A program made the translations under genes and the position numbers. The notes under the pieces were generated by a model that saw only the letters and a list, made by a program, of their open reading frames with translations, was not told the DNA's origin and did no database searches. A stretch of 64,000 nt of DNA from Actinomycetales bacterium (GTDB lineage: Bacteria > Actinomycetota > Actinomycetes > Actinomycetales > Kineosporiaceae): the NCBI GenBank assembly GCA_012719445.1, contig JAAYAH010000037.1, forward strand, positions 1 to 64,000, given 5' to 3'. The number at the start of each line of letters is the position of its first letter. Positions within the stretch are counted from its first letter, which is position 1. This document shows positions 16,189 to 63,127 of this stretch, in pieces.

Positions 16189-16315
16189 CCGACCGTCCAC
16201 CTCTCCTCGGTGGGTGGGTGGGGGACGTGGCTGTCGGCACCACTGTCCTGTCGTTCCTGCGCGCACTCGGCGGTCTGGTTCGGGGACCCGCCGGGAGGAC
16301 CCATTGAGAGGAATC

Positions 16316-32482: not shown

Positions 32483-32483
32483 G

Positions 32484-34534: not shown

Positions 34535-36031
<1,497 letters not shown>

Positions 36032-46666: not shown

Positions 46667-47917
46667 TCAGCGCTCCGGCCCGGAGCCGCAGACGCTGACG
46701 ATCGCCGAGAGCACGTCCGCCCTCACCGAGCCCGGGGCCACCGGGTCGAGGTGCACCTGCCCGCGGTCCTCCGAGCGCGGCCCGGTGACGGCGAGCGTCG
46801 AGGACGGCGTGAGCAGCCACAGGCCGTGCCGGGCGAGGGTCCTGGCGCGGGGGCTGGACACGGTGATCTCCACGGCGCCGCGCAGCCGGGTCGCGAGGCT
46901 CGCCAGCAGCGGGGGCACGGCGTGCTGCTCCCCGCCCAGCCCGTCGAGCATGACGCCCAGCAGATCGTCGCGCCCCTCGCGGAGCACCGAGGCCAGCAGC
47001 AGGGACTCCTCGAGGCTCATCTCCAGCTCGCCGCCGACGACCACCCCGTGCGAGGAGGTCCCGTAACCGGACGGCCGGTACCCCTGGCCCCCGTAGCTCC
47101 CGCTCCCGCGGCCGCCGTGACCGCCGGGTCCGTACCCGCCCTGCCCGTACCCGCCGGCTCCGTACCCGCCCTGCCCCGGTACCCCGTACCCGGTGGAGTA
47201 CGGGCCGGTGCCGTGGCCGGTGTTGTGCGGCCCGGTGTCGTAGTGACCGGTGTTGTGCGGCCCGGTGTCGTAATGGGGCATGCTCGCGTGCCGCCCGGCA
47301 CCGGCCTGCCCGCCCGCGTGCGGGACCGACCCCGTCCCGGGAGCCATGGGCCCCGCCCCCGGCGGCACGGCCCGTCGGGAGTCGACGGCGAGGGGGACGG
47401 CGCGCATCGCCTCGTCGAGGAGGTCCTCGGGCAGGAACCCGGACATCTCCATCCCGGACCGGTCGCCGACGATGACGGGGTGCCCGTCGGACCCGGTGCC
47501 GACCAGCTGTGCCCGGATCACCGAGCAGGCGCGGTCTCCTGCCACGGCGAGGTAGGCGAGCACGGCGCGGTCCGCCACCCAGGACCGCACCGCGACGGTG
47601 ATGTCGGCGGTCCCGAGCACGAGCAGCCCGTGCAGCACGGCGGGGTGGATCGCCCGCGCCGCGTCCGGCCCGGACACCGGGACGGAGGACAGCAGGCCGA
47701 GCCGGAGCATCCGGCGCATCGCCGCGGCGTACAGGGCGGAGCGCTGGCCCCGGTCGAGGTCGACAGGCCAGCGCGGCTGCATCCACTCCGGCAGCGGGAT
47801 ACCCGCCATGACCTCGTTGAGGACCAGCCAGGAGTCGACGTCCATGAGCAGTCGGACCGCCGGGTTGCGCGAGCGGCTCGCCGTGCCGGTGCGGGCCCCG
47901 GCCGTCAGCTCGCTCAT
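46667..47917 (-). CDS. EspG-like (ESX secretion-associated type) protein with Gly/Tyr-rich insert, tentative
   Basis: A 416-residue protein without signal peptide. The N-terminal part (LLMDVDSWLVLNEVMAGIPLPEWMQP, MRRMLRLGLLSSV, VLGTADITVAVRSWVADRAVLAYLAVAGDRACSVIRAQ) and the C-terminal VEITVSSPRARTLARHGLWLLTPSSTLAV recall the two halves of EspG-fold proteins, which chaperone PE/PPE-like ESX substrates. No ESX genes are near, so this is a weak call. Between the halves lie about 110 residues of His/Asn/Thr repeats (HYDTGPHNTG twice) and GYGAGGYGQGGYG, encoded by DNA repeats. Start: ATG with GGAG eight bases upstream. Convergent with menC. Confidence 0.55.
   Translation of the reverse strand: MSELTAGARTGTASRSRNPAVRLLMDVDSWLVLNEVMAGIPLPEWMQPRWPVDLDRGQRSALYAAAMRRMLRLGLLSSVPVSGPDAARAIHPAVLHGLLVLGTADITVAVRSWVADRAVLAYLAVAGDRACSVIRAQLVGTGSDGHPVIVGDRSGMEMSGFLPEDLLDEAMRAVPLAVDSRRAVPPGAGPMAPGTGSVPHAGGQAGAGRHASMPHYDTGPHNTGHYDTGPHNTGHGTGPYSTGYGVPGQGGYGAGGYGQGGYGPGGHGGRGSGSYGGQGYRPSGYGTSSHGVVVGGELEMSLEESLLLASVLREGRDDLLGVMLDGLGGEQHAVPPLLASLATRLRGAVEITVSSPRARTLARHGLWLLTPSSTLAVTGPRSEDRGQVHLDPVAPGSVRADVLSAIVSVCGSGPER
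47217..47272. repeat. 26-bp unit repeated twice within the EspG-like gene
   Basis: ccggtgttgtgcggcccggtgtcgta spans 47217-47242 and again 47247-47272, a 30-bp period encoding ten residues. Neighbouring DNA encodes Gly/Tyr repeats. Confidence 0.75.
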
Positions 47918-48512
47918 GGCCGGTCTCCGTGACGACGTGCCGGGGAGCTGGTGCCGGCGCTCTGGCTCCCGGTACACCCCGCACACCTCCCGTCAGCGGC
48001 CGCTCCCGTCGTGGCACGCGGGCGCGTCGGCGCCCGCCCCGCCACCTCGCGTCGGGTGGCCGGTACATGACGGCGCCAGGGCACCCTCCCCGCTCCGGCC
48101 ACGGCTCGCGCACCGCGGACGGCACCAGGGGACGGTGCCGACATGATCAGCGTGTACCCCGTTCAGTGATCACGGCGGTGTTCCGTCGTGATGTCACCTG
48201 GATGGCCTTGCCGGACTCGCCGGCACGGTGGTGGCTCCCCCTGCTTCGACCGGTCACAGGCGGCTCCTTCGTCCTGGCCGCCGAGCCCCTGGCGCCTCGG
48301 CGTGTCGAGATCATCACCCCTTGGAACCGCCAGGTCAACCATGTGAAGCGTCGGATAGCCCAGCACTTCCGACGGATCTGGCGAAAGGGGGGTTCCTGCT
48401 CCTTTCTGTTGCTGCACGGTCACTCCGAGTGGTGAGAACAGTGATCGTCAGGTGACGGAGGGGGCGATCATCACGTGACGGACGGCGGGGCCAGCAGGTG
48501 ATGGAGGAGGGG
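47918..48512. other. Intergenic region, mostly featureless
   Basis: 595 bases between the EspG-like gene and the GH31 gene. An imperfect hairpin (atcacggcgg/ccgtcgtgat, one mismatch) lies near 48169-48192. Three similar units around ggtgacggag recur between 48449 and 48505. A small open frame at 48178-48435 is listed separately. Confidence 0.4.
48178..48435 (+). CDS. Doubtful small ORF, 85 residues
   Basis: Reads VFRRDVTWMALPDSPARWW, later VEIITPWNRQVNHVKRRIAQHFRRIW and LLLHGHSEW. Composition looks somewhat protein-like (Trp, Phe, His in place) but third-position GC is lower than in neighbouring genes and there is no clear ribosome site. The opposite strand is also open. It may not be a gene. 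Confidence 0.2.
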   Translation: MFRRDVTWMALPDSPARWWLPLLRPVTGGSFVLAAEPLAPRRVEIITPWNRQVNHVKRRIAQHFRRIWRKGGSCSFLLLHGHSEW

Positions 48513-50558
48513 TCAGGAGACGTCGGTCCCCGGGCCGCAGGGCTCGTGGATCGGCAGCAGCGTGCCGTCCCTGAGGAACAGCGGGACGCGCTCCAGCGGG
48601 GCGTCGACGGTGACCGTGGCACCGCCCGGGTATGCGGTGCCGGTCCACGCGTCGCACCAGAGCGCACCGCTCGGCAGGTACACCGTCCGGGTCCTGGCGC
48701 CCGCCTCGAGCACCGGCGCGACCAGCAGATCCCTGCCGAACAGGTAGGCGTCGTCGACCGTCCACGCCTGCTCGTCGTCCGGGAAGTCGACGAACAACGG
48801 GCGCATCACCGGGAGGCCGTCCCGGTGCGTGACGGCCATCTGCTCCAGCAGGTAGGGGGTGATCCGCTCGCGCAGCCGGACGTAGGACGCCATGATCTCG
48901 AAGGCGCGCTCGCCGTAGGACCAGAGCTCGTTGGGCCCGCCGGTGATCTGCGGGCTGAACTCCATCGCCGGCTCCCGGAACCCGTGCAGGCGCATGATCG
49001 GGGAGAACGTCCCGAACTGGAACCACCGCACCATCACCTCGCGGTACTCCGGCGACGTCGGATCACCGCCGTGGAACCCCCCGATGTCGGTGTTCCACCA
49101 CGGGATGCCGCTGACGGCCACGTTGAGCCCCGCCGCGATCTGGCTGCGCAGGGTCGCGAAGTCGGTGCCGATGTCGCCGGACCACAGCGCGGCGCCGTAG
49201 CGCTGGCTGCCGGCCCACGCGGACCGGTTGAGGGTGACCACGTCCGTCCGCCCGGTCTCGACCATGCCCTCGTAGAAGGTCCTGGCGTTCTCGCGCGGGT
49301 AGACGTTGCCGACCTCCAGCCCGGGGCCGACGTGGTACCGCAGGTTCGCGGGGCAGGCGGGCTTCAGCTCGGGCTCGCAGGCGTCGGCCCACCAGCTCTC
49401 GACGCCGAGGGCGAGGTAGTTGTCCGCGAGCCGGCTCCAGACGAACTCCCTCGCCTCCGGGTTGGTCGCGTCGTAGAAGGCGACCTGCACCGTGGTGTCG
49501 ATCCCCTTGTCCGGCCAGTCGGCGTGTGCCGTCGGGCCGAACTCGGTGCCGATGAACAGCCCTCGCCGCTCCAGCTCGGCGTGGTTCTCGCTGAGCGGGC
49601 TGACCGACGGCCAGACCGAGACCATGAGCCGGGTGCCGTAGCTGGCCAGCTCCTTCACCGCCGCCGCCGGGTCCGGCCACTCCTCCGGGTCGAAACGCCA
49701 GTCGCCCAGGTGGGTCCAGTGGAAGAAGTCGCAGACGATCACCGAGAGCTGGATCCCCCTGCGGTGGTACTCCCTCGCCACCTCCAGCAGCTCTTCCTGG
49801 GAGCGGTAGCGCAGCTTGCACTGCCAGAACCCGGCGGCCCACCGGGGGAACTCCGGTGCGTGGCCGGTCGCGTCGGCGTAGCGGCAGAGGACGTCGGCCG
49901 GGCGTCCGGCGGTGACCCAGTAGTCGATCTGCCGGGCGCAGTCGGCGACCCAGCGGGTGCCGTTGGCCGCGAGCTCCACCCGGCCGATCGCCGGGCTGTT
50001 CCACAGCAGCCCGTATCCCCGGCTGGACAGCAGGAACGGGATGGTCACCTCGGAGTTGCGCTGGACGAGGTCGACGACGACGCCCTTCTGGTCGAGCAGC
50101 CCGTGCTGGTGCTGGCCGAGGCCGAAGAACCGCTCGTCGTCGTAGGCGCGGAACCGCTGCTCGATCCGGTGGTACCCGTTGCCGTGCGAGGTGCGCAGCC
50201 GCGGCCCCGGCCACCAGAAGTGGGCGTCCTGCTCGGCGAGCAGTTCGGTGCCGTCGGCGGTGCGGCGGAACGTGAGCCGCCCGGTGGGGCTGAGCTCCAC
50301 GGTCACGGCTCCGTTGACGATCCGAGCCCCGGCGGGGCCGACCTCCACCTCGGGGGTGGTCGGCACCGGGTCGACCAGCGCCCCCGGGAGATCGTCGAGA
50401 ACCGGCCCGGCCAGCCGGGACCGGACCCGGATCCCGTCGGCACCCCATGCCTGCACCCGCAGCGTCTCCTGCTCGGCGGACCACTCGACCCCGCCGGGGC
50501 ACAGGCGGAAGTCCCCACGGGCGTGGGTGTGGTTGGCCAGGGGCGAGTCGTCGAGCAT
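48513..50558 (-). CDS. GH31 glycosidase, probable alpha-xylosidase
   Basis: A 681-residue cytosolic glycosidase without signal peptide. The GH31 N-domain (ERFFGLGQHQHGLLDQKG) precedes the barrel: FPRWAAGFWQCKLRYRSQEELLEVAREYHRRGIQLSVIVCDFFHWTHLGDW, the nucleophile segment ESWWADACEPE, and the acid/base region LNRSAWAGSQRYGAALWSGDI. DFFHW with W-W-x-D-x-x-E-P-E is typical of alpha-xylosidases acting on xyloglucan oligosaccharides, though an alpha-glucosidase is possible. ATG two bases after the GH95 stop: translationally coupled last gene of the transporter arm. Confidence 0.88.
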   Translation of the reverse strand: MLDDSPLANHTHARGDFRLCPGGVEWSAEQETLRVQAWGADGIRVRSRLAGPVLDDLPGALVDPVPTTPEVEVGPAGARIVNGAVTVELSPTGRLTFRRTADGTELLAEQDAHFWWPGPRLRTSHGNGYHRIEQRFRAYDDERFFGLGQHQHGLLDQKGVVVDLVQRNSEVTIPFLLSSRGYGLLWNSPAIGRVELAANGTRWVADCARQIDYWVTAGRPADVLCRYADATGHAPEFPRWAAGFWQCKLRYRSQEELLEVAREYHRRGIQLSVIVCDFFHWTHLGDWRFDPEEWPDPAAAVKELASYGTRLMVSVWPSVSPLSENHAELERRGLFIGTEFGPTAHADWPDKGIDTTVQVAFYDATNPEAREFVWSRLADNYLALGVESWWADACEPELKPACPANLRYHVGPGLEVGNVYPRENARTFYEGMVETGRTDVVTLNRSAWAGSQRYGAALWSGDIGTDFATLRSQIAAGLNVAVSGIPWWNTDIGGFHGGDPTSPEYREVMVRWFQFGTFSPIMRLHGFREPAMEFSPQITGGPNELWSYGERAFEIMASYVRLRERITPYLLEQMAVTHRDGLPVMRPLFVDFPDDEQAWTVDDAYLFGRDLLVAPVLEAGARTRTVYLPSGALWCDAWTGTAYPGGATVTVDAPLERVPLFLRDGTLLPIHEPCGPGTDVS

Positions 50559-50560
50559 CG

Positions 50561-53050
50561 TCAGGTGCCTTTCGTCGGTACGGGTGCTGCGGTCGGTGCG
50601 GGGGCGGCGTCCGGGTGGCCGGGATCGCCGGGCCGGACCCGGGTGGGGATGGTGAGCCGCAGGCGGACGGGGACCCCCGCCGGGAGGTCGACCGGCCACG
50701 AGGACGGCGCGTCGTCCGCCGCCGGGGGGCAGCCGGTGGCCAGGCGGCAGCTGACCGTGACCCGGCGCGGGACGGGGGAGACCAGCTCGACCGTGACCCG
50801 TCCGGCCGGGAGATCCCAGCTCAGCTCGCCGATCCGGACCCCGGCCCTGGTCATGGCCCCGTGCAGGGACCCGGTCGGCAGCCGGCCGGGCAGGGCGGGG
50901 AGCAGCTCGATCCGGGCCGGGCCTTCGGCCGTCGCCGGGGACGAGCCCAGGAGCAGCTCCGTCAGCACCCCCGGCAGGGCGCACGCGGCGTCGGCGTTGA
51001 ACACCCTGCGGCCGGGGTAGTGGCTGGACATCAGGCTCGGGAAGAAGCTGTCCCCCGCGAGGAGGGTCCGCAGCGCGTCCGCGGCGTGGTCGGCGTCCCG
51101 CAACCGGGCGGCGGCGAGCGCCCGGTGCAGGAGACCGTGCGCCGAGGAGTCCTCGGCGGTGCGGAGCCGGAGGGCCCGCCGGGCCGCCGCGGCGAGACGG
51201 GGGTCGGTGTCGGGGGAGATCTCGTGCAGGGGCCACACCGGGTAGAGGTGGCTCACGTGACGGTGCGCGTACCGGTCCGCCAGCCCCGGCCGGACCCACT
51301 CGGCGAGGGCACCGTCGGCGTTCACCCGGTAGTCCGGCAGTCGCCGCGCCAGGTCCTCCCAGCGGGCGACGTCCCGCTGCGGTACGGCCTCGCCGAGCTC
51401 CCGGCACCAGCGGGCCGCCCTGGTCAGCGCGTGCCGGGCCGCCGCCACGTCCATGGTCGCGTCCACCGCGGCCGCGGCGTTCACGGCGGCGCCGAGGGGC
51501 CGGTTCTCCGGGGAGTACGACGGGACGAGCGTCACCACGCCCCCGTCCCCGGGGTCGCGGAGGACGTCGGCGTAGAACTCGGCGACGGCGCGCAGGGCCG
51601 GGAGCACCCGACGGCGCAGGAAGTCGAGGTCGCCGGTGGCGTCCACGTGGTCGAGCAGCGTGGTGAGCAGCCAGTCGGCTCCCGCCGTCCACAGGTGCAG
51701 CGGGTAGGCGGGCTCGAAGTGGGTGGTCAGGCCGGTCCTGCCGTCGGTGTGGGCCGGGGCGACGGCACCGCGGGCTCCGAAGATCCTTCGGGCGTTGGTC
51801 CTCCAGTCGGGCAGCTGGGCCGCGACGAACCCGGCGAGAGCGTGCACCGCCTCGCGGACGTCGGTGGTGACCGCTCCGGCCAGTTGCAGCGGGAGGTTGG
51901 CGTCGAGGGTCAGCGCGCCAGACCAGGCGGCGTGCCAGTCGCCCTGCCACAGGCCGACGAGCCGCGGCGGGAGCAGGTCGCTCGCGCTGAGCAGGAGGTA
52001 CCGGCCGGTGTCGAAGAGCCGTTCCAGCAGCGCGGGGGAGCAGCCGCCGTCCGGCGTCACCGGTCTCGCCAGCAGGTCCTCGACGGCCAGGGCCCGCTCG
52101 GCCGCGCTCGCCCCGAGGTCGAGGCGCACCCGGTCCATCACCGGGGTGTGCAGGCCGACGTGCCGGGACAGCAGGGTCTCGTGGTCCTGCGGAAGCCGGG
52201 CCAGGTCGTCCAGCAGTCGGGTGCGCAGCAGTTCGCCGCTCTCGCCGGGGGAGCGCACGGCCACCCGGGACAGCAGCAGCACCTCGTCGGCCCCGACGGC
52301 TTCGACCGCCGGGTCGGCCTCGCCGGTCCCGGCCTGCGTCCCGGCCCCGACGGCCTCGTCCCGGACGACGACGCGGGTGGCGACCAGGTAACCGCCGACG
52401 TCGGCCGGTCGGCTGCCGGGACTCGGGTGGTCGACGGCGGTCACCAGGACGGCACTCCCCGGTGCCCGTCCGCCGGAGGGGACGGTGGTGGTGACGGCGA
52501 GCTCCTCCGGGCTGCCGGGGAGCCGGGCGTCGTGGCGGACCACCAGCCGGGGCACCGGTCGGGGCCGGCGGAGCCGCTGCACCACGACGTCGTCGGACCG
52601 GGAGACGAAGCAGGTGCGTGTCCACTCGCCGTCCCGGTCCGTCCAGGCGGTGCCGACCACCCCGGTGCGGAGATCGGTCCAGCGCAGGTAGTCGTCCGGT
52701 GCGGGCGCGCCGTCCGGGGCGGCCTCCGTCCGCACCGCGAGGGCGGGGTGGAACGGTCGCGGTGCGGACTGCGCGAACCCGTCGGTACACCGGGCGACGG
52801 CCTCCTCGGAGCGACCGGCGAGCACCAGTTCGGCGACCTCGGGCATGACCCCGGCCACCTCCGGCGGGAGCGTCACCTCGTCCGGCATCGGTCGGACCAG
52901 CCGGTGGTGCGTCACCACGACGCGCTCCCGCCAGGTCCCGCCGTCGACCAGGGCGCCGTGCCGGCCGTTGCCGGTGAGGAAGCTCTCCTCCCAGTGCGCC
53001 GCGGGGCGTGCGGAGTGCACGCCCCGTGCCGGAGGTGGGGTCGCGGCCAT
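50561..53050 (-). CDS. GH95 family glycosidase (alpha-L-fucosidase/alpha-L-galactosidase type)
   Basis: An 829-residue cytosolic enzyme. GH95 landmarks: AHWEESFLTGNGRHGALV at the start, PPRLVGLWQGDWHAAWSGALTLDANLPLQLAG, TAGADWLLTTLLDHVDATGD, VPSYSPENRPLG with the catalytic Glu, and HRHVSHLYPVWPLHEISPD. The Asp partner lies in RRVFNADAACALPGVL. The Asn-x-Asn that positions water in characterised fucosidases reads D-A-N here, so the specificity may be shifted, for instance to alpha-L-galactose or arabinose. ATG is one base after the permease stop (TGACATG). Confidence 0.85.
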   Translation of the reverse strand: MAATPPPARGVHSARPAAHWEESFLTGNGRHGALVDGGTWRERVVVTHHRLVRPMPDEVTLPPEVAGVMPEVAELVLAGRSEEAVARCTDGFAQSAPRPFHPALAVRTEAAPDGAPAPDDYLRWTDLRTGVVGTAWTDRDGEWTRTCFVSRSDDVVVQRLRRPRPVPRLVVRHDARLPGSPEELAVTTTVPSGGRAPGSAVLVTAVDHPSPGSRPADVGGYLVATRVVVRDEAVGAGTQAGTGEADPAVEAVGADEVLLLSRVAVRSPGESGELLRTRLLDDLARLPQDHETLLSRHVGLHTPVMDRVRLDLGASAAERALAVEDLLARPVTPDGGCSPALLERLFDTGRYLLLSASDLLPPRLVGLWQGDWHAAWSGALTLDANLPLQLAGAVTTDVREAVHALAGFVAAQLPDWRTNARRIFGARGAVAPAHTDGRTGLTTHFEPAYPLHLWTAGADWLLTTLLDHVDATGDLDFLRRRVLPALRAVAEFYADVLRDPGDGGVVTLVPSYSPENRPLGAAVNAAAAVDATMDVAAARHALTRAARWCRELGEAVPQRDVARWEDLARRLPDYRVNADGALAEWVRPGLADRYAHRHVSHLYPVWPLHEISPDTDPRLAAAARRALRLRTAEDSSAHGLLHRALAAARLRDADHAADALRTLLAGDSFFPSLMSSHYPGRRVFNADAACALPGVLTELLLGSSPATAEGPARIELLPALPGRLPTGSLHGAMTRAGVRIGELSWDLPAGRVTVELVSPVPRRVTVSCRLATGCPPAADDAPSSWPVDLPAGVPVRLRLTIPTRVRPGDPGHPDAAPAPTAAPVPTKGT

Positions 53051-53051
53051 G

Positions 53052-54044
53052 TCAGCCCTTCACGGCCCCGATGAGCATCCCCTTGGTGAAGTGCCTCTGG
53101 ACGAAGGGGTACACGAGCATGATCGGTACGAGGGTGAGGACGACGACCGCCATCTGCAGCGAGAGGTGGGCGACCTGCTGGCGGCCGAGATAGCCGCCGA
53201 GCTCCGTCCTGCCCGTCCCGGCCATGGTGAAGCCCTGGGTCACGTAGTTGTACAGGACGAGCTGCAGCGGCCACTTCTCGTTGGCCGCGGGCATGTACAG
53301 CAGCACGTTGAAGAACGAGTTCCAGTAGCCGACGGCGTAGAACAGGGCGATCACCGCGTTGACCGCCTTGGAGGTGGGCAGCACGATCGACCACAGGATC
53401 CGCCACTCGCTGGCGCCGTCGATCCGGCCGCTGTCGATGAGCTCCGGCGCGGTGTTGGCGAAGAACGCCCGCATGACGAGGATGTTGAAGACCGACACCG
53501 CACTGGGCAGGATCAGCGACCAGTACTGCTCGTAGCCGCCGAGGGCGGCGACGACGAGGAAGCTCGGGATGATCCCGCCGCTGAAGAACATCGTGAGGAT
53601 CAGCGTGAACAGGATCGTGCGGTGGGCGAAGGACCGGGGGCGGGACAGGCCGTAGGCGCACAGCACGGTGACCACCATGGAGACCGCGGTGCCGACGACG
53701 GTCACCCCGAGGCTCACCACGAGGGCCCTGGTGACCACTCCGCCCTGGATGATCTCCCGGTAGGCGTTGAGGGTCACCCCGCCCTCCGGGACGACCACCA
53801 GGCCGCCGGCCGCGTCGACGGACGCCTTGGTGGAGAAGCTCGTCATGATCACGCTGTAGATCGGGAGGAGGATCACCGCCAGGACGGCAAGGATCGTGGC
53901 GCCCTTGGCGACGTTGCCGGCGACCGTCGGCGGTTCCTCCCACGGCGGGCGCTGGTTCGGCCGCTCGTTCCTGGGGTTCCGGCGGGGCTCGGCGGCCGCT
54001 TCGCGCGAGGCGCGGCCGCGACGGGAGGTCTTCGTGAGGTTCAT
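53052..54044 (-). CDS. ABC sugar permease, LplC/YtcP type
   Basis: A 330-residue inner-membrane permease. After a basic N-terminus, six spans begin TILAVLAVILLPIYSVIMTSF and include TILFTLILTMFFSGGIIPSFLVV and MAVVVLTLVPIMLVYPFVQ. FFSGGIIPSF, RAFFANTAPELIDSGRIDGASEWRILWSIVLP (EAA-like loop contacting the ATPase) and QRHFTKGMLIGAVKG at the end are typical of the YtcP/LplC group, which imports complex oligosaccharides. No ATPase gene lies in the locus, so a shared one such as MsiK is probably used. Start codon overlaps the previous stop (ATGA). Confidence 0.93.
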   Translation of the reverse strand: MNLTKTSRRGRASREAAAEPRRNPRNERPNQRPPWEEPPTVAGNVAKGATILAVLAVILLPIYSVIMTSFSTKASVDAAGGLVVVPEGGVTLNAYREIIQGGVVTRALVVSLGVTVVGTAVSMVVTVLCAYGLSRPRSFAHRTILFTLILTMFFSGGIIPSFLVVAALGGYEQYWSLILPSAVSVFNILVMRAFFANTAPELIDSGRIDGASEWRILWSIVLPTSKAVNAVIALFYAVGYWNSFFNVLLYMPAANEKWPLQLVLYNYVTQGFTMAGTGRTELGGYLGRQQVAHLSLQMAVVVLTLVPIMLVYPFVQRHFTKGMLIGAVKG

Positions 54045-55087
54045 CTCCGGTACAGCCCGTCCTCTCCGAACGCGTGTGCCAGCTTGTTCGCCCCGATGAT
54101 CAAGATCATGGACAGCACCCCCTTGAACAGGCCGGCGGCCGCGCCGTATCCGAAGTCGGACGTCACCACGCCGTAGTAGTAGGAGAAGGTGTCGAGCACC
54201 TCGGACGCCTGGAACCCGACGGCCTTGCGCTGGATGAGCATCTGCTCGAACCCGACGGTCAGCGCGTTCCCGAGCCGCAGCACGAGCATGAGCACGATGA
54301 CCCCGCGGATCCCCGGCAGGGTGATGTGCCAGGTCCGGCGCCACCGGCTGGCTCCGTCCACCGCGGCGGCCTCGTAGAGGGTCGGGTCGATGGCGGCGAG
54401 CGCCGCGAGGAACACGATGATGCCCCAGCCGGCCTCCTTCCACACCGCCTGCGAGGTGACCAGAAGGGCGAAGGTGTCCGGGTCGGTCATGATGTCGATG
54501 GTCGGCAGTCCGCCGTTGCGCAGCAGGGTGTTCACCAGCCCGGCGCCGCCCAGCATCTGCTGGAAGATGGTGACGACGAGCACCCAGGAGAAGAAGTGCG
54601 GTAGGTAGACCACGCTCTGGACGAAGGACCGCAGCTTGGTGCTCATCAGGCTGTTGAGCATGAGCGCCAGGGCGATCGGCACCGGGAAGTAGAGGATGAG
54701 CTGTACCGCGCTGATGGTGAGGGTGTTCTCCAGCGCCATCCAGAAGTTCGGGTCACGGAACAGCCGCTCGAAGTTGTCCAGCCCGATGAACGGGCTGTTC
54801 CGGAAGCCGTTGTAGATGTCGTAGTACTGGAAGGCGACGACCGACCCGAACATCGGGATGTAGTTGAAGACGACCAGCAGCAGCACCGCGGGCGCCGTCA
54901 TGATCAGAAGCGACTTGTCCCGCCAGAGCCGGGTCCGCCAGGTCCACCGCCGCTCGGGTGGGGCGTCGAGGTCGGGGACGTCGGCGGCTCCGGGGTCCGC
55001 CGAGCCGGGGCTCCCGGAGCCGTTCTCGCTCGCCGGGTCCCTGGTCGGGACGACCTGGTCCGGGAGGGTTCCGGTGTCCTCCGCCAT
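54041..55087 (-). CDS. ABC sugar permease, LplB/YtcQ-operon type
   Basis: A 348-residue permease, partner of the one downstream. An acidic, disordered N-terminus of 45 residues precedes KSLLIMTAPAVLLLVVFNYIPMFGSVVAF, the usual first span and periplasmic loop of the LplB group. LRSFVQSVVYLPHFFSWVLVVTI and EAAAVDGASRWRRTWHITLPGIRGV (EAA loop) follow. It lies 188 bases downstream of the binding-protein gene, beyond a hairpin likely to lower permease expression relative to the binding protein. Confidence 0.93.
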   Translation of the reverse strand: MAEDTGTLPDQVVPTRDPASENGSGSPGSADPGAADVPDLDAPPERRWTWRTRLWRDKSLLIMTAPAVLLLVVFNYIPMFGSVVAFQYYDIYNGFRNSPFIGLDNFERLFRDPNFWMALENTLTISAVQLILYFPVPIALALMLNSLMSTKLRSFVQSVVYLPHFFSWVLVVTIFQQMLGGAGLVNTLLRNGGLPTIDIMTDPDTFALLVTSQAVWKEAGWGIIVFLAALAAIDPTLYEAAAVDGASRWRRTWHITLPGIRGVIVLMLVLRLGNALTVGFEQMLIQRKAVGFQASEVLDTFSYYYGVVTSDFGYGAAAGLFKGVLSMILIIGANKLAHAFGEDGLYRR

Positions 55088-55172
55088 CTCGTGCCTCCGT
55101 TGTCGATCCTGCGGGTGGTGCCGACGTCACCGGGTCTCGGTGCCGCCGGCACGACCAGGTGCGGCCGCAGGG

Positions 55173-55222
55173 ACGGGCCCCGTGTCCGCGCCGTTGGAGG
55201 GGTTGCGCGAACACGGGGCCCG
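55173..55222 (-). other. Intra-operon hairpin between binding-protein and permease genes
   Basis: cgggccccgtgt (55174-55185) and acacggggcccg (55211-55222) pair; a further inner cgcgc/gcgcg pair shortens the loop. Such hairpins commonly protect the upstream mRNA end or act as partial terminators, giving more binding protein than permease. Confidence 0.65.
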
Positions 55223-55275
55223 CTGGCCGCGAGCGCTCCTGGTGGGCTACCAGCCAGTGGGGTGGGGCCGGGCGG

Positions 55276-56937
55276 TCACTGGCCGGTGCCGTACTGCTCG
55301 CGGATTCCGGTGTAGAAGTCGCGCAGGGCGTCACCACCGTTCCTGCGCCAGGTGTCGACGGCCTTCTTGAAGTCGTCGATCGACTTCCGGTTGCGGCAGA
55401 CGTCGGTGATGGTGTCCTCGACCGGCTGGCCGATGCTCGAGTACTGCTGCGGCTCGGTGATGTTCATGCCGTAGAACACCGGCTTGTAGGCGGTGGCGCC
55501 GGCCTTGGCGTGCCAGTCGCAGTAGGTCCGCACCCAGTCCTCGTACCCGGGCTTGGAGGTGACCGACGGCGCGGTGGCGAGGAACTGGTAGGTCGTGGCG
55601 ACCTGCTTCTCCCCGGTCTTGGTGAGCTTCGGGCCGTTGGCCTCCATCGTGTGCGTGACGTCGGCCGGGCCGAAGTTGACCAGCGTGTACTCGGCGGAGC
55701 CGAACGGGGCCGCGATGTAGTTCGCCAGCCGGAGACACTCCTCGATCTGGGCCTTGTTGAGCTTCTTGTTGAGATAGCTGAACATGCTGGCGCCGTTGCC
55801 GAGCGCGTACCGCGGCGTTCCGGTCCCGGACGCGGTGAAGGGCTGCATCGCCTGCATCTTGAAGACCGTGTCACCGGCGAGGTCCTGCTGCTCGACCATG
55901 CCGCCCCACGCGCCGGTGCCGTCGCCGTACATGGCGATCTTGCCGCTGGTGAAGCGCTGCTTGGTCTCGTTGGTGTTGCCGGCGAGGGCGTCCGGGTGGA
56001 TGAGCTCTGCGGCCACGATCTTCCGCATGAACTCCAGCGCCTGGATGATCTCCTCGGTCTCGTACTTGTGCACGAGCTTGTCGGAGGAGTCGATGGCCCA
56101 CTTGAAGGGGATGTCGAACGGCTGGGCGAGGTAGGTCCAGAGGTCGTCGAAGCCCCAGACCTTCTTCTTGGGGTCGGTCAGGGCCTTGCCGGCCTCGAAC
56201 AGCTCGTCGGCGCTCTTGGGCTCGGCGATGCCGGCCTTCTCGAACATGTCCTGCCGGTAGAAGATCGCGCCGGCCAGGACGACGTTCGACGGGTAGACGG
56301 GGATCCCGAAGAGCTTGCCGTTCCACACCCCGGCCTGCCAGGCGTTGCTGGGGACGTTGGCGAGGTTGGGGTACTTCTTGACGTTGTCGCCGGACAGGAA
56401 CGGGGTGAGGTCGACGAACTTGGCCTCGACCGCGCTGCCGAAGTTGAGGTTCGTGGTGTTCCAGCTCGGGATGTCGATCCAGTCCGGCAGCTTGTCCCCG
56501 GTGAACAGGGTCGGCAGCACGTCGCCGTAGGTGTTGCCGTTGGCCGGTTTCATGGCCAGGCTCGCGCCGAAGGCGGCGTTCATGGCCTCGTAGTACTTGT
56601 TGCCCTTGGCGGAGGGGATCGCGCCCCACAGCGGGGTGATCGCGGTGTAGCTGCCGCCGGCCCCCGGCGCCTCGGGAACCGTCGTGATCTGGTCGGTCGG
56701 GTACTTCAGGTAGCCGGGGTCACTCCCGTTGGCACTCGGGATGTCCGGGGGGACCAGGGTGCTGGGTACGTACGCGGGGAGGATCTTCGCCAGCTCGGAG
56801 GTGCTCGTGCCGCCGGTCTTCTTCGCGCTGTCCGACTCACAGCCGGCGAGCACGGACGGCGCGGCGAGCGCACCGGCACCCGCCGCGACGGTGAAGAGGA
56901 ACGACCTGCGGGACGGGCCCGGTGTGTGGGTACCCAT
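55276..56937 (-). CDS. Extracellular sugar-binding lipoprotein of an ABC importer (LplA/YtcQ type)
   Basis: A 553-residue lipoprotein. The N-terminus has a twin-arginine pattern SRRSFLFTVAAGAGALAAPSVLAGC with the lipobox LAGC at the end, so it may be exported folded by Tat and then lipidated. The large size, the segment GDVLPTLFTGDKLPDWIDIPSW, and RQDMFEKAGIAEPKSADELFEAGKAL fit the cluster that binds complex plant oligosaccharides. First gene of the transporter-GH95-GH31 arm. Start: ATG with AAAGGTGG upstream. Its likely promoter is at 57211-57239, about 270 bases upstream, with an operator just downstream of it. Confidence 0.93.
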   Translation of the reverse strand: MGTHTPGPSRRSFLFTVAAGAGALAAPSVLAGCESDSAKKTGGTSTSELAKILPAYVPSTLVPPDIPSANGSDPGYLKYPTDQITTVPEAPGAGGSYTAITPLWGAIPSAKGNKYYEAMNAAFGASLAMKPANGNTYGDVLPTLFTGDKLPDWIDIPSWNTTNLNFGSAVEAKFVDLTPFLSGDNVKKYPNLANVPSNAWQAGVWNGKLFGIPVYPSNVVLAGAIFYRQDMFEKAGIAEPKSADELFEAGKALTDPKKKVWGFDDLWTYLAQPFDIPFKWAIDSSDKLVHKYETEEIIQALEFMRKIVAAELIHPDALAGNTNETKQRFTSGKIAMYGDGTGAWGGMVEQQDLAGDTVFKMQAMQPFTASGTGTPRYALGNGASMFSYLNKKLNKAQIEECLRLANYIAAPFGSAEYTLVNFGPADVTHTMEANGPKLTKTGEKQVATTYQFLATAPSVTSKPGYEDWVRTYCDWHAKAGATAYKPVFYGMNITEPQQYSSIGQPVEDTITDVCRNRKSIDDFKKAVDTWRRNGGDALRDFYTGIREQYGTGQ

Positions 56938-56971
56938 CAGTGGGCCACCTTTCGTCCTTACGCCTCGGTCA

Positions 56972-56984
56972 GCGTTTCGAACGC
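56972..56984. promoter_or_regulatory. GCGTTTCGAACGC inverted repeat
   Basis: Arms GCGTT and AACGC around TCG, 35 bases before the start of the binding-protein gene. The geometry differs from the two GAAnCGCTTC operators (odd centre), so it may be a weaker site for the same repressor or chance. Confidence 0.35.
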
Positions 56985-57185
56985 AGCCTCACCAGGTCAC
57001 CGACCACGGCGCGAGGTGTCCGCCCCGGTCCCGATGCCGCAGCGGACGCGGCGTGGAATCCGGCGTGACACCGGAGGCATCCCTGCCGTCGGCACATCAA
57101 ACCGACCACGCGAGGTACGTGAACGCACCGTCACCTGGCCGGCAGCGTGAACCGATCCACGTAGCGCCTGTCGTGGTGATCTTCG

Positions 57186-57199
57186 TCGAAACGCTTCGA
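57186..57199. promoter_or_regulatory. LacI-type operator of the binding-protein promoter
   Basis: TCGAAACGCTTCGA, symmetric at six of seven base pairs with a central CG. It starts 12 bases downstream of the minus-strand -10 hexamer, so a bound repressor would cover the transcription start. Confidence 0.7.
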
Positions 57200-57210
57200 T
57201 ATGCTGCGGG

Positions 57211-57239
57211 AGAGTACGACATCGCGCAGCACGGGGCAA
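57211..57239 (-). promoter_or_regulatory. Promoter of the transporter arm
   Basis: On the minus strand TTGCCC (57234-57239) is 17 bases from TACTCT (57211-57216), a fair actinobacterial promoter. The operator lies immediately downstream. Confidence 0.55.
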
Positions 57240-57460
57240 GGGGCTGGCGCAAGTGATTTACCGCCAGCCCTCCGCATTCCCCGGGCGATCCCTGGCCCCG
57301 GTCCCGCCGTGGTGTCCCGGTTCCCCTGGATGCCGGCAGGTCGCCCCGACCGCCCCGGTTGATCCGCGCGGGACACGGCCAAGAAATCGCGGATAGTGAG
57401 AGCGCAATTCCTGACAGTCACCATCGGTGTCGGGGAAGGTGTCGGGTGGGCGACGAAACC

Positions 57461-57489
57461 TTGACATGCCCTGACGGCGATGCCAGGGT
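57461..57489 (+). promoter_or_regulatory. Promoter of the GH3-GH42 arm
   Basis: A perfect -35 TTGACA (57461-57466), 17-base spacer, then CAGGGT (57484-57489). The operator at 57489-57502 overlaps the -10 end and the start point. The leader to the GH3 ATG is about 150 bases. Confidence 0.65.
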
Positions 57490-57502
57490 CGAACCGCTTC
57501 GA
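57489..57502. promoter_or_regulatory. LacI-type operator of the GH3 promoter
   Basis: TCGAACCGCTTCGA, symmetric at six of seven base pairs, differs from the site at 57186 by one base. Its position over the transcription start implies repression. Confidence 0.7.
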
Positions 57503-57645
57503 TGATCGGGTGTCGTCCACCCGAACGGCGGGTCGCACCGGGGCGGATCCCCGGTCCCGGCCCGTATCCTCGTCGGGCGCGAAGATCCCCCCGGACGCGT
57601 GCCCGACGACGGCGCGCCCGGACCACGACGGAGGGGACACGGCCC

Positions 57646-60600
57646 ATGGGAACGCCGTCCGGCCCAGGACATGCGATCACAAAAATGACCACGGACGCGG
57701 CGACCACCCGCGCCCTGCGGGAGGAGCGGGTCGACAGCCTGCTGCGCCGGCTGACCCGGACGGAGAAGCTGGAACTGTTGCACCAGGTGTCCCCCGGGGT
57801 CCCGCGCCTCGGCCTGGCCCCGTTCCGGACCGGGACGGAGGTCCTGCACGGCGCGGCCTGGCTGGGGACGGCCACGGTGTTCCCCCAGGCCGTCGGCCTC
57901 GGAGCGACCTGGGACCCCGCCCTCGTCGAACGCGTCGGCCGCGCGGTCTCGGCGGAGGTCCGTGCCCTGCACCACCGTGACCCCCTGATCAGCCTCAACG
58001 TGTGGGCGCCCGTGGTGAACCTGCTGCGCGACCCTCGCTGGGGGCGCAACGAGGAGGGCTACTCCGAGGACGTCCTGCTCACCGTGACCACGACCCTGGC
58101 CTACTGCCGCGGGCTGCGCGGCGAGGACCCGCTCGCGCTGCGGACCGCGCCCCTGCTCAAGCACTTCCTCGCCTACAACAACGAGACCGCGCGGGACACC
58201 ACGGACGTGTCGTTGCGGCCCCGGGTGCTCCGCGAGTACGACCTCCCGGTCTTCGCCGTCCCGCTGCTCGCCGGGGTGGCCACCGGGGTCATGCCGTCGT
58301 ACAACATCGTCAACGGGCGGCCCAACCACGTGACCCCGCTGCTGGGCGAGCTCAGGGCGCTGGTCGTCGCCGCGACCGGCGAGGACATCGTCGTCTGCTC
58401 CGACGCGGAGGCGCCGTCCTTCCTCGTGGACACCGAGCACTACTTCCCCGACCACGCGACGGCCTACGCGGCGGCGCTGCGGGCCGGGGTCGACAGCTTC
58501 ACCGACCACGGTGACCAGACCGAGGTCACCGTGGGACGGGTCACCGAGGCCCTCGACCGAGGGCTGATCACCGAGGAGGACGTCGACCGCGCGGTCCGGC
58601 GGCTGCTGACGCTCCGGGCCCGGCTGGGGGAGTTCACCCCGGAGCGGGACCCGCACGCGGGGGCGGGCGACGACGCCCTGGACAGCCCCGAGCATCGGGA
58701 CCTCGCCCTGACCGCGGCGAGGGCCCAGGTCGTGCTGCTGCGCAACCGGGGTGACCTGCTGCCGATCACGCCGGGCCCCGGGGCCCGGATCGCCGTCGTC
58801 GGGCCGTACGCGGACGTCGTCTGCACCGACTGGTACAGCGGCACCCCGCCCTACCGGGTGGGGATCGCGGGCGGGCTGGGCCGGGCGCTCGCCGCGACGG
58901 GTGGGGAGGTGCGCTGGACCGAGGGGGTCGACCGGATCCGGCTGGTGTCCCGGCGTGGGGACGCCCTCCGGGTGGGCGGTGCCGCGGCCCCGGCCCTCAC
59001 CTGCGTCCCCGTCGACGGCCCTGTGCCTGCCGGCGACCCCGCGTCTGCCGGCGACCCCGCGTCCGCCGGTGGCGCGCCGTCCGCGGACGGCCCTGCGCCT
59101 GCCGAGGGCGCCGGCTCCGCCGACGCATCGGTGGCCGAGTTCGACGTCTTCGACTGGGGCTGCGGGGTGGTGACCCTGCGCAGTGTCGCGACCGGCGGCT
59201 ACGTCTCCGCGCGACCGGACGAGGCACCGGCCGCCGACGTCCCGGAGCCCAACGGCTGGTTCGTCCGGGAGACCCTCTCCCTCGACCCGGCACCGGCTCC
59301 CGACCCGGCACCGGCTCCCGATCCGGTCCGGGCACCGGAACCCGCTCCCGACCAGGTCTACCGGCCGGGACGGGGCGACCGGTCCGGCCGGGAGGACCGG
59401 GTGGTCGTCCTCCGCGCGGTCTCGACCGGTGAGTACACCGTCGTCGACGCCGACACCGGTGCCTTCCGTTTCGCCGACGTGCCGGCGGCCGAGGCCGAGC
59501 CCTTCACCGTCGAGGTGATCCGGCGCGGGGTCGACGAGGCGCTGGCGGCGATCGCGGACGCGGACCACGTGGTGGTGGTCGTCGGCAACGACCCGCACGT
59601 CAACGGCAGGGAGACCGAGGACCGGACGACACTGGCACTGCCCCCGGCGCAGGAGGAGCTGGCCAGGACCGTCGCCGAGGTCCACCCCCGCACCGTCCTC
59701 GTGGTCATGAGCGGGTACCCCTTCGCGCTGGGGACCGCGGCCGAGCACGTCCCGGCGATCCTCGCCACCAGCCACGCTGGGCAGGAGACGGGTACCGCGA
59801 TCGCTGACGTCCTGCTCGGGACGTACCCGCCGTCCGCCCGGCTGGCGCAGACCTGGCATCGCGCGGACGGTGACCTTCCCGACCTCCTCGACTACGACAT
59901 CATCAAGGCCCGCCGCACGTACCTCTACGACGACAGGGAACCGCTGTTCCCGTTCGGGCACGGCCTCACCTACACGACGTTCGGCTACGGGGAGCTCGCG
60001 CTGTCCCCCGGTGCCGTCGAGGCCGACCGCGCCCCGGTGACCGTCCGGGCCGAGGTGGCGGTCACCAACACCGGCAGCCGGACCGGCACCGAGGTGGTCC
60101 AGCTCTACAGCAGGCACCTGCCGCCCCGTCCGGACCGGCCGCTGCGGCGGCTGCAGGCCTTCGCCCGGGTCACCCTCGCCCCGGGCGAGACCCGAATCGC
60201 CCGACTGGAGTTCCCCCTCACCGCCCTGGAACACCTGGACGTCGCGAGCGGCCGGATGCGCGTCGAGCCCGGGACCTACGAGCTGTTCGTCGGTCGGTCG
60301 TGCCTCGACGTCGTCGCGACCGCGCGGCTGGAGGTGGACGGTCCCGCGCCGGAGCCGCGCCGGGTGGTCGGGACCCGGGTGCGGGCGGTGGACTTCGACG
60401 ACTACGAGGACGTCGTCCTCGTCGACGTGAGCCGGGTGTCGGGGGACGCGGTGGCCCCTCGCGGCGAGGGCCCTGGCCTGCTGCTGTTCCGCGACGTCGA
60501 CCTGGGCCCGCTGGCCCCCGTGACCGGTGCGTGCGGCGTGACCGGTGCGCGCGGCGTGACCGGTGCGCGCGGCGGAGACGGTGCGACCGGCGGGGTCGGC

Positions 60601-60927
60601 GCGGCCGGCACCGGGGGGCGGGTGACCGTGCGGGTGGCCAGGGCGGCGGAGGGCAGCGCACGCCTGGAGCTGCGCCGCGACCACCCCGAGCACGGGGTGC
60701 TGCTCGCCGAGGTCGAGGTCCCGTCCACCGGCGACGTCCACGCCTGGACCGAGGTGGAGGCCGACCTCCTGCTCGGGGCGACGGTGTCCTCCCTGCCCGG
60801 AGGGACGGTGTCCTCCCTGCCCGCGCCGGACGTCGTGCCGTCCACCGGCGACCTGTACCTCGTCCTCCACGGTGAGCAGCGGGTGGAGAGCTTCCGGTTC
60901 GACGTGACCGGCGGCGACCGTGCCTGA
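57646..60927 (+). CDS. GH3 beta-glycosidase with inserted beta-trefoil-like domain and C-terminal CBM6-like domain
   Basis: An unusually long GH3 enzyme of 1093 residues without signal peptide, probably a beta-glucosidase or beta-xylosidase. Barrel domain: FRTGTEVLHGAAWLGTATVFPQAVGLGATWDP, NVWAPVVNLLRDPRWGRNEEGYSEDV, LLKHFLAYNNE and the nucleophile Asp in VVCSDAEAPSF. The sandwich domain starts LTAARAQVVLLRN and ends VVVVVGNDPHVNGRETEDR. Between these, about residues 490-620, sits GVVTLRSVATGGYVSARPD and VVVLRAVSTGEYTVVDADTG, a fascin-like beta-trefoil. A fibronectin-type domain (FPFGHGLTYTTFGY, TGTEVVQLY) is followed by a jelly-roll CBM6/35-like end. Start: ATG with GGAGGGG upstream. Overlaps the GH42 gene. 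Confidence 0.87.
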   Translation: MGTPSGPGHAITKMTTDAATTRALREERVDSLLRRLTRTEKLELLHQVSPGVPRLGLAPFRTGTEVLHGAAWLGTATVFPQAVGLGATWDPALVERVGRAVSAEVRALHHRDPLISLNVWAPVVNLLRDPRWGRNEEGYSEDVLLTVTTTLAYCRGLRGEDPLALRTAPLLKHFLAYNNETARDTTDVSLRPRVLREYDLPVFAVPLLAGVATGVMPSYNIVNGRPNHVTPLLGELRALVVAATGEDIVVCSDAEAPSFLVDTEHYFPDHATAYAAALRAGVDSFTDHGDQTEVTVGRVTEALDRGLITEEDVDRAVRRLLTLRARLGEFTPERDPHAGAGDDALDSPEHRDLALTAARAQVVLLRNRGDLLPITPGPGARIAVVGPYADVVCTDWYSGTPPYRVGIAGGLGRALAATGGEVRWTEGVDRIRLVSRRGDALRVGGAAAPALTCVPVDGPVPAGDPASAGDPASAGGAPSADGPAPAEGAGSADASVAEFDVFDWGCGVVTLRSVATGGYVSARPDEAPAADVPEPNGWFVRETLSLDPAPAPDPAPAPDPVRAPEPAPDQVYRPGRGDRSGREDRVVVLRAVSTGEYTVVDADTGAFRFADVPAAEAEPFTVEVIRRGVDEALAAIADADHVVVVVGNDPHVNGRETEDRTTLALPPAQEELARTVAEVHPRTVLVVMSGYPFALGTAAEHVPAILATSHAGQETGTAIADVLLGTYPPSARLAQTWHRADGDLPDLLDYDIIKARRTYLYDDREPLFPFGHGLTYTTFGYGELALSPGAVEADRAPVTVRAEVAVTNTGSRTGTEVVQLYSRHLPPRPDRPLRRLQAFARVTLAPGETRIARLEFPLTALEHLDVASGRMRVEPGTYELFVGRSCLDVVATARLEVDGPAPEPRRVVGTRVRAVDFDDYEDVVLVDVSRVSGDAVAPRGEGPGLLLFRDVDLGPLAPVTGACGVTGARGVTGARGGDGATGGVGAAGTGGRVTVRVARAAEGSARLELRRDHPEHGVLLAEVEVPSTGDVHAWTEVEADLLLGATVSSLPGGTVSSLPAPDVVPSTGDLYLVLHGEQRVESFRFDVTGGDRA

Positions 60928-63127
60928 CCACGGGCCCGGGGCCCAGCCGGGGTCCGCCCCCGACCACGGTCCGGGGTCCCGTCCCCAGGCAGCGCTCGGC
61001 CACGGTCCGGCCTCCGAGCACGGTCCCGGCGACGACTCCCGGCCCGGCCGGGCGGTCCGGGGTCGGCGCATCCTCTTCGGCGGTGACTACAACCCGGAGC
61101 AGTGGGACGACGACGTCCTGGCCGAGGACGACGTCCTCATGCGCCGGGCGCGGGTCACCGCGGCGACGGTCGGGGTGTTCTCGTGGTCCTGCCTCGAACC
61201 GGAGGAGGGCAGGTACGACTTCGGCTGGCTGGACCGCACCATGGACCGGTTGCACGCCGTCGGCGTCCGGGTGGTGCTGGCGACCCCCACCGCCTCGCCG
61301 CCGCCGTGGTTCACCGTCGCCCACCCCGACGCGCTGCCGGTCACCCCGGAGGGGACCCGGCTGTGGCACGGCAGCAGGGACACCTACTGCGTCGCGGCCC
61401 CGGCCTACCGGGCGGCGGCGCTGCGGATCGCCACCGCCCTCGCCGAGCGCTACGCGGACCACCCGGCGCTGGCCTTGTGGCACCTCCACAACGAGTACGG
61501 GACGTTGTGCTGGTGCGACCACGTCGCGGCGGCCTTCCGGGTATGGCTGAGGCGGCGTCACGGGGAGGGACGGGACGGCCTGGAGTCCCTCAACCAGGCC
61601 TGGAACACGGCGTTCTGGAGCCAGCGGTACACCTCGTGGGAGCACGTGCTGCCGCCGCGGGCCACCCAGTACCTGCACAACCCCGCGCAGGTGCTCGACT
61701 TCCGCCGGTTCTTCTCCGACGAGCTGCTCGCCGCCTACCGCGAGCAGCGCGACGCCGTCCGTCGGTTCACCCCCGACGTCCCGGTGACGACGAACTTCAT
61801 GCTGCCCGACTACCAGAACCTGGACTTCTGGCGGTGGAGCCGCGAGGTCGACGTCGTGGCCGTCGACCACTACCTGGCCACCCCCGACCCGGAGGGGCGG
61901 GCCGACCTGGCCTTCGGGGCCGACCGGGCCCGCTCGTTCAACGGCGGACGGCCGTGGCTGCTCATGGAGCAGGCCCCGAACCTCGTCTTCGACGCGGGCA
62001 TCCTGCGGGCCAAGACCCCCGGTCGGATGCTCGGCGACAGCCTCGCCTACCTGGCCCGCGGCTCCGACGCGGTGATGTTCTTCCAGTGGCGCCCCGGCCG
62101 GACCGGCTCCGAGGTCCACCACTCCGCGATGGTGCCGCACGCCGGCGCCGACACCCGGGTCTTCCGGGAGGTCGTGGAGCTGGGCGAGACCCTCGGCAGG
62201 CTCGACGAGGTGGTCGGCAGCACGCTGCGGGCCGACGTCGCGATCCTGTGGGACGCCGACGCCTGGTGGGCGCTGGAAGCCCCTGGGTCCCCGTCACCGC
62301 GGATGCGCTACCTCGATGCGCTCCGCCAGGCGCACCATGCCCTGTGGCGGGCGGGCGTCGTCACCGACTTCGCCCACCCGGAGGACGACCTGTCGCGCTA
62401 CCGGCTGGTGCTCGCCCCGAGCGCGTACCTGCTCTCCGACGCCGCGGCGGCCTCGCTGTCGGCCTACGTCGACGGTGGCGGTCACCTGTTCGTCGGCTGC
62501 TTCTCCGGGGTGGTGGACGCCACGGGCCGCACCCGACTCGGCGGCTATCCCGGCGGCCTGCGCGACGTGCTCGGGATCCGGGTCGAGGAGTTCCGCCCGC
62601 TCGCGGACGGCGAGGAGGTCGTGCTCGCCCGGGCTCCGGCCTGGCCTGCCGAGGGTCGGCCGGACGGCGCTCCTGACCAGTCCCGGGACGACGCCCCGGA
62701 CGGGGCCCGGGACGGGGGGCTGCGCGGGCGGTTGTGGTCGGAGTACCTGCACGCCCCGGGCGCCGAGGTGCTGGCCGGGTACCGGGGCGGGGTGCTCGAC
62801 GGGCAGCCGGCCGTCACCCGGAACCGGTGGGGTACCGGCACCGGCTGGTACTGCTCCACCCGGTTGCGCGACGACGACCTCGCCGCTCTGCTCGCCGAGG
62901 TCGGCAGGGCCGCCGGGGTCGCCCCGACGTGCCCCGGCCTGCCCGAGGGGGTCGAGGCGGTGCGCCGGCTGGCCCCGGACGGGCGGAGCTGGCTGTTCGC
63001 GTTCAACGACTCCGGAGCCGCGGTCGAGGTGCCGGCCAGGGGAGTGGAGCTGCTCACCGGCGCGGTGGTCACCGGCGCCGTCGAGGTGCAGTCCGGCGGG
63101 GTCGCCGTGGTCCGCGAGACCGGATGA
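60920..63127 (+). CDS. GH42 beta-galactosidase
   Basis: A 735-residue cytosolic enzyme. After a 48-residue low-complexity N-terminus with HGPG repeats comes RRILFGGDYNPEQWDDDVLAEDD, the GH42 opening. The acid/base is the Glu of WHLHNEYGTLCWCD and the nucleophile the Glu of WLLMEQAPN; VTTNFMLPDYQNLDFWRWS and VMFFQWRPGRTGSEVHHSAMVPH are characteristic. The trimerisation and C-terminal domains are present, with an Asp/Arg-rich insertion near residues 580-600. It would remove galactose from imported oligosaccharides. Start: GTG overlapping the GH3 end by eight bases; the exact start is uncertain because of the repetitive lead. Confidence 0.92.
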   Translation: MPDHGPGAQPGSAPDHGPGSRPQAALGHGPASEHGPGDDSRPGRAVRGRRILFGGDYNPEQWDDDVLAEDDVLMRRARVTAATVGVFSWSCLEPEEGRYDFGWLDRTMDRLHAVGVRVVLATPTASPPPWFTVAHPDALPVTPEGTRLWHGSRDTYCVAAPAYRAAALRIATALAERYADHPALALWHLHNEYGTLCWCDHVAAAFRVWLRRRHGEGRDGLESLNQAWNTAFWSQRYTSWEHVLPPRATQYLHNPAQVLDFRRFFSDELLAAYREQRDAVRRFTPDVPVTTNFMLPDYQNLDFWRWSREVDVVAVDHYLATPDPEGRADLAFGADRARSFNGGRPWLLMEQAPNLVFDAGILRAKTPGRMLGDSLAYLARGSDAVMFFQWRPGRTGSEVHHSAMVPHAGADTRVFREVVELGETLGRLDEVVGSTLRADVAILWDADAWWALEAPGSPSPRMRYLDALRQAHHALWRAGVVTDFAHPEDDLSRYRLVLAPSAYLLSDAAAASLSAYVDGGGHLFVGCFSGVVDATGRTRLGGYPGGLRDVLGIRVEEFRPLADGEEVVLARAPAWPAEGRPDGAPDQSRDDAPDGARDGGLRGRLWSEYLHAPGAEVLAGYRGGVLDGQPAVTRNRWGTGTGWYCSTRLRDDDLAALLAEVGRAAGVAPTCPGLPEGVEAVRRLAPDGRSWLFAFNDSGAAVEVPARGVELLTGAVVTGAVEVQSGGVAVVRETG

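Follow-up and report, generated by a model that had tools for sequence, protein, structure and literature searches.

A probable xyloglucan oligosaccharide import and digestion locus and a proposed split LacI regulon in an actinobacterium

Seven genes fill positions 48513-63127 of the window, i.e., the whole 64,000-nucleotide stretch analyzed here from an actinobacterial genome of 5.42 Mb in 283 contigs, and are arranged in two divergent arms. Read from the center outwards, the minus-strand arm comprises a substrate-binding lipoprotein (SBP, 553 aa; 55276..56937), two ABC permeases of CUT1 type (permease 1, 348 aa, 54041..55087; permease 2, 330 aa, 53052..54044), a GH95 glycosidase (829 aa; 50561..53050) and a GH31 enzyme with the features of an alpha-xylosidase (681 aa; 48513..50558). 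On the plus strand, a GH3 enzyme of beta-glucosidase type (1093 aa; 57646..60927) is followed by a GH42 beta-galactosidase (open frame of 735 aa, with an uncertain GTG start; 60920..63127). The limits of the locus are the stop codons of GH31 (48513) and GH42 (63127). The permease genes share a 4-base overlap, GH95 and GH31 are spaced by two bases, and the GH3 and GH42 frames overlap by 8 bases, the GH3 start having been picked from a purine-rich stretch upstream. All seven genes described in the initial annotation are thus present in their reported orientations, and Pfam confirmed the enzymes and permeases, with E-values of 4.3e-80 for GH31, 1e-69 for the GH95 catalytic domain and 2e-130 for GH42, BPD_transp_1 domains in both permeases, and N- and C-terminal domains in GH3. 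Between the arms lie two operator-like palindromes, TCGAAACGCTTCGA (57186..57199) and TCGAACCGCTTCGA (57489..57502). The window also has, at 46667-47986, an open frame of 439 aa that contains Gly/Tyr-rich repeats and had no match in Pfam.

Near its start the SBP has the twin-arginine motif SRRSFLF and a lipobox whose cysteine is Cys33, and an alignment of 33 relatives shows no variation at R10, R11, F13, L14 and C33, in keeping with its earlier description as a Tat-type binding lipoprotein. No Pfam family matched this protein. Its model (pLDDT 81.5) is predicted to fold as a large oligosaccharide-binding protein, the best Foldseek matches being AlgQ2, AlgQ1, glycosaminoglycan-binding proteins and FusA, with moderate TM-scores of 0.54-0.68 and 13-17% identity. 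Athe_2052 of Anaerocellum bescii is reported as a solved xyloglucan-binding protein of 551 aa with a cluster G fold (PMC12710961), and the SBP, at the moderate TM-scores of its model, may belong to this structural class; the Athe_2052 entry was not among the PDB matches listed for the SBP. The SBP and two permeases make up the importer, which has no local ATPase. Across the whole genome there is one MalK-type ATPase (OB_MalK), located elsewhere than the locus, as expected for shared use. The 5.4-Mb genome has 76 matches to PF13377 (the LacI sensor domain, Peripla_BP_3) but only this one MalK-type ATPase, and is geared to many sugars via one shared pump motor.

When the GH31 sequence was compared with solved structures by phmmer, MeXyl31 (5zn6) scored 668.8 bits, far ahead of the next match, the alpha-xylosidase 7kmp (356.7 bits). 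Of the four PDB sequences after MeXyl31, three carry an alpha-xylosidase label and the other (6dru) is named as a GH31 protein, placing alpha-xylosidases as the nearest characterized relatives. MeXyl31 acts on isoprimeverose. GH42, in which Pfam recognized the GH42, 42M and 42C domains, matches solved beta-galactosidases (511 bits to PDB 9ta3). The relatives of GH3 are a mixture of beta-glucosidases and beta-xylosidases, and its role is therefore assigned from context; its C-terminal GH3 domain is interrupted at residues about 430-620 by a beta-rich insert, in which visual inspection suggested repeats resembling a beta-trefoil; the insert is common to the Streptomyces orthologues and variable in length. 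Export was gauged by the highest 15-residue hydrophobicity within the first 60 residues, a crude measure used in place of a signal-peptide predictor. Peak values were 0.26 for GH31, 0.24 for GH95, 0.63 for GH3 and -0.49 for GH42, and 1.73-2.17 for exported proteins (the SBP, GH74s and a GH12). By this crude test none of the four glycosidases has a hydrophobic start, consistent with the earlier remark that they have no signal peptide, and GH31, GH42 and GH3 are predicted from hydrophobicity to be cytoplasmic, as in a system of the Ruminiclostridium cellulolyticum type.

A single GH95 scan of a species genome collection yielded 307 relatives, of which the best 80, mostly from Streptomyces, were kept; GH95 is present in all 80 by construction, since the loci were chosen by it. 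Among these best 80 of 307, GH42 was found in 74, permease 2 and GH12 in 69 each, GH3, SBP, permease 1 and LacI in 68 each, GH74 in 58 and GH31 in 57. Since GH74s were counted from as little as 80 bits, a low threshold, this tally includes a few fragments lying at breaks of contig or frame (e.g., L067, L088, L092). All ten tested parts occur in 39 of the 66 loci of at least 20 kb, and in seven of these 66 GH74 is the only part missing. Some loci, Microbispora among them, have GH95 but not the other parts. Because the block recurs in most of the 80 loci, the seven-gene set is not a chance assembly. In most of the relatives, GH3 occupies one strand and the order then runs through SBP, two permeases, an extra gene, GH42, GH95, a second extra gene and GH31; the extra genes were identified by Pfam, in two examples each, as GH74 and GH12, and the one protein of each kind tested carries an export signal. 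The related loci (L014-L092) thus share the block, and nearly all of the GH31 matches in the Streptomyces loci are 67-71% identical to the window protein (75% for one fragment). They differ from the window in that GH74, GH12 and LacI lie inside or beside the block rather than elsewhere in the genome, GH42 adjoins GH95, and GH31 is on the opposite strand.

The GH95 protein has the three-domain fold and catalytic domain of its family, as judged by Pfam and an AlphaFold model (pLDDT 80.1). By both sequence and modeled fold, its nearest solved relative is XacAfc95 (7kmq), described as removing fucose in the Xanthomonas xyloglucan system (PMC8245568), and it is likely to be an alpha-1,2-L-fucosidase or alpha-L-galactosidase. 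In alignments with solved GH95s, the active-site positions are occupied by Thr381, Asp383, Asn385, Glu515 and Asp687, with Asp383 and Asn385 opposite Asn372 and Asn374 of BACOVA_03438 (Asn numbering as given in PMC4491172). The pair proposed to activate water in AfcA (Asn421/Asn423) is accordingly Asp383/Asn385 in the window protein, which stays in GH95 by fold and Pfam despite Asp383. Where the first catalytic Asn is expected, Asp is present in 59 and Asn in 17 of the 76 members of the clade, and all eight outgroup members have Asn; the other four positions, including the general acid Glu515 and the activating Asp687, are invariant in 76/76. For this count, five of the 80 loci (L030, L047, L061, L073, L082) were not extracted, and L014 and L020 were added by hand. 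On a tree of 82 rows, built by a quick method without L014 and L020, with the trait column included and with long branches around the window row, the Asp/Asn label changes 6 to 7 times, at least 4 of them on well-supported branches; three Microbispora rows are unlabeled on this tree and have Asp in the alignment column. Thr381 was considered as a marker of L-galactosidases and rejected, as XacAfc95 has Thr yet is a fucosidase (PMC8245568).

The exchange of Asp for Asn at a catalytic position bears on water activation in GH95, which has been called unusual (PMC4491172, PMC12282258). In one account the first Asn positions the acid and the second is the base (PMC12282258), whereas in another both are treated as activating water (PMC4491172); given these differing assignments, the exchange may either adjust the acid or bring in a carboxylate that acts as base. 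The replacement of the first catalytic Asn in 59/76 clade members, against 0/8 in the outgroup, and the identity of only 18-28% to solved GH95s in the fold alignment could also be taken to mean that the protein acts with a novel specificity or is a remnant without catalysis, leaving no working fucosidase or galactosidase here. We consider this unlikely, given that the counterparts of base, acid and activator (Asn385, Glu515 and Asp687) are the same in all 76, and that most loci have the gene within the block, albeit in a set of loci that was itself collected by GH95. GH95 was found in 0/12 same-family genomes and GH31 (at 50% identity) in 2/12, a distribution that is no more than suggestive of horizontal transfer.

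As the initial annotation had indicated, no endo-xyloglucanase was found in the window as far as tested; the one GH5 examined (16112-17710, with a CBM2) was considered as a hidden endo-xyloglucanase and rejected, its nearest structures being beta-mannanases. The genome has one GH74, with a CBM2, on contig C200 (C200:7529-9784), which scores 1135 bits against a solved GH74-type entry, matches several named xyloglucanases and is taken to be a secreted endo-xyloglucanase. There are also two GH12 proteins, one with a CBM2 (contig C212), so that the GH74 and the two GH12s together would cover extracellular digestion. Identity of this GH74 to the GH74 of the Streptomyces loci is no more than 40-44%, and it may hence not be the same gene moved, or may have another history. 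Within the window, a GH62 with a ricin-type lectin domain is encoded at 4150-5745, and a GAAGCGCTTC palindrome is present at 5755, just upstream of the open frame.

Exact copies of the operator motif TCGAAnCGnTTCGA occur twice in the 5.4-Mb genome, both between the two arms, with no copies of the backwards control; at up to one mismatch there are 14 sites, and two for the control. Over all 80 related loci (the best 80 of 307), 207 copies were counted in 1.65 Mb against one of the backwards control, and the two copies are likewise placed, at orthologous positions, in 66 of the 67 relatives with enough upstream sequence; in L014, the upstream sites are degenerate. One of the one-mismatch sites in the window genome (C200:9964-9977) lies 153 bases upstream of the GH74 start (L126:9811), and a LacI gene is found near this GH74 on C200 (L126:11160-12185). 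Its product is 56% identical over the full length to the LacI of a Streptomyces locus, the next full-length matches in the window genome being about 29-34% identical and partial or local ones reaching 40-51%. It is also 58-59% identical to LacI proteins encoded beside GH95 and GH42 in two same-order genomes (L002, L003). From the operator copies at both loci and the orthologous LacI, we propose a single LacI regulon split over two loci, in which LacI would control both arms and GH74 through TCGAAnCGnTTCGA. No sensor or response regulator was found among the seven genes of 48513-63127, and the absence of two-component genes bears on regulation and not on uptake strategy. Another LacI-family regulator is encoded in the window at 22192-23490.

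It might instead be supposed that the locus serves a scavenger importing oligosaccharides released by others, with the C200 GH74 devoted to cellulose breakdown and outside any co-regulation. The GH74 does lie on a separate contig, carries a CBM2, has limited identity to the locus GH74s and is preceded by an operator copy with one mismatch. That copy, however, is close to its start and near the orthologous LacI, and with 14 sites in 5.42 Mb the chance of one falling within 300 bases upstream of a named gene is, by simple arithmetic, about 8e-4, which makes the scavenger explanation improbable. The 11 further one-mismatch sites are on contigs C120, C126, C29, C32 and C169, which were fetched, and on the remainder, C21, C137, C190, C197, C232 and C269. 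The C29 site is about 240 bases upstream of a second GH31 (L152:3807-6254), which is perhaps a further member of the regulon. The sites on C32 and C169, which have a different center, may be other LacI operators, and other LacI proteins of the genome, to judge from the 76 Peripla_BP_3 matches, could read similar palindromes.

Genes for handling the released sugars were also found. A galactokinase and GalT are encoded in the same window (31241-33632), in a row with a DeoR-like regulator recognized by eye (31241-34621), and would provide a route for galactose released by GH42. A xylose isomerase is encoded on C226, and no fucose isomerase of family PF07881 was found in the genome.

Xyloglucan had initially been guessed as the substrate from the four enzyme families, and the proposal now draws on four independent lines of evidence: the best solved relatives of GH31 are alpha-xylosidases; the Streptomyces block includes secreted GH74 and GH12; the organism's own GH74 carries a near-copy of the locus operator; and the architecture, on comparison with characterized loci, matches the experimentally proven xyloglucan system of R. 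cellulolyticum as described in PMC4780118. Hardly any substrate but xyloglucan would fit a pathway in which a secreted GH74 is joined by an importer and by an alpha-xylosidase, a beta-galactosidase and a beta-glucosidase. It is very improbable that the locus is instead devoted to a different branched glycan whose terminal linkages are identical, for example the side chains of pectin or a complex xylan bearing alpha-xylose, with xyloglucan as a secondary substrate, for although Bacteroides ovatus xylan loci are reported to combine GH31, GH95 and GH3 as well, with GH31 taking xylose and GH95 L-galactose from corn xylan (PMC4491172), and GH42 and GH95 are not specific to xyloglucan, GH74, whose solved members are mostly named xyloglucanases, occurs in 58 of the best 80 of 307 related loci and bears the operator near-copy in this genome, and inspection by eye of the listed gene starts of five loci, some of them tested by Pfam, revealed no xylanase or pectinase in the block.

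Taken together, these data make it highly probable that the locus supplies one half of a xyloglucan regulon in a soil-type actinobacterium, the half for import and for digestion in the cytoplasm. From the genes, families, fold matches, operator copies, LacI orthology and synteny observed in the sequence, we infer the activities, order of cuts, binding, repression and inducer as follows. Xyloglucan would be cut outside the cell by the secreted GH74-CBM2 (C200) and probably the GH12-CBM2 (C212), and the lipid-anchored SBP would capture the XXXG-type oligosaccharides, which the two permeases would import, powered by the single MalK-type ATPase. Inside the cell, GH95 would take terminal L-fucose (or L-galactose) and GH42 galactose, and GH31 and GH3 would alternate from the non-reducing end to release xylose and glucose. 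The LacI-type repressor encoded near GH74 would hold both arms and GH74 off at TCGAAnCGnTTCGA until released by a xyloglucan product.

Import of xyloglucan products followed by digestion is known from Ruminiclostridium (PMC4780118) and Anaerocellum (PMC12710961). In the experimentally proven system of R. cellulolyticum, XXXG-type oligosaccharides are imported and degraded in the cytoplasm by GH42 and then by GH31 and GH3 in turn (PMC4780118). As in the window, Ccel_2451-2458 encode an SBP and two permeases without an ATPase, divergent from cytoplasmic GH31, GH3 and GH42, and the extracellular GH74 is elsewhere; the R. cellulolyticum cluster as described nevertheless differs in having a two-component system where the window system has a LacI type, in being without GH95, and in its cellulosomal extracellular enzymes (PMC4780118). 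Anaerocellum bescii, in Athe_2052-2054 and the GH31 Athe_2057, similarly has a 551-aa SBP near GH31 (553 aa in the window), no local ATPase and a GH74 elsewhere, whereas its cluster, according to the same account, is without GH42 and a fucosidase, and a LacI operator pair is not part of that description (PMC12710961). The Xanthomonas XyGUL likewise combines GH74, GH31 and GH95, and holds the nearest solved GH95, but is reported to use TonB-dependent outer-membrane uptake, GH35 instead of GH42, and an acetylesterase (PMC8245568). No description of the actinobacterial locus or operator was found in the literature searched, which covered few subscription journals. Tentatively, the locus may represent a widespread xyloglucan regulon of actinobacteria that is controlled by a LacI repressor and has apparently not been described, with a GH95 clade in which the first catalytic Asn has repeatedly given way to Asp.

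In the tomato rhizosphere, plant loci have been linked to variants in microbial genes that carry the annotations xyloglucanase Xgh74A and alpha-xylosidase, in a section of the report dealing with Cellvibrio and Streptomyces (PMC9203511), and the block described here may be the machinery behind these signals. Should the GH95s of this clade prove active, the Asn-Asn pair would be dispensable for catalysis in the family, and a carboxylate close to the water may be used by some members; the clade would then be a natural experiment on the family's unusual base. What began as a family-based guess has become a regulon with a candidate regulator gene, operator, importer and enzyme set, which is testable in ordinary Streptomyces.
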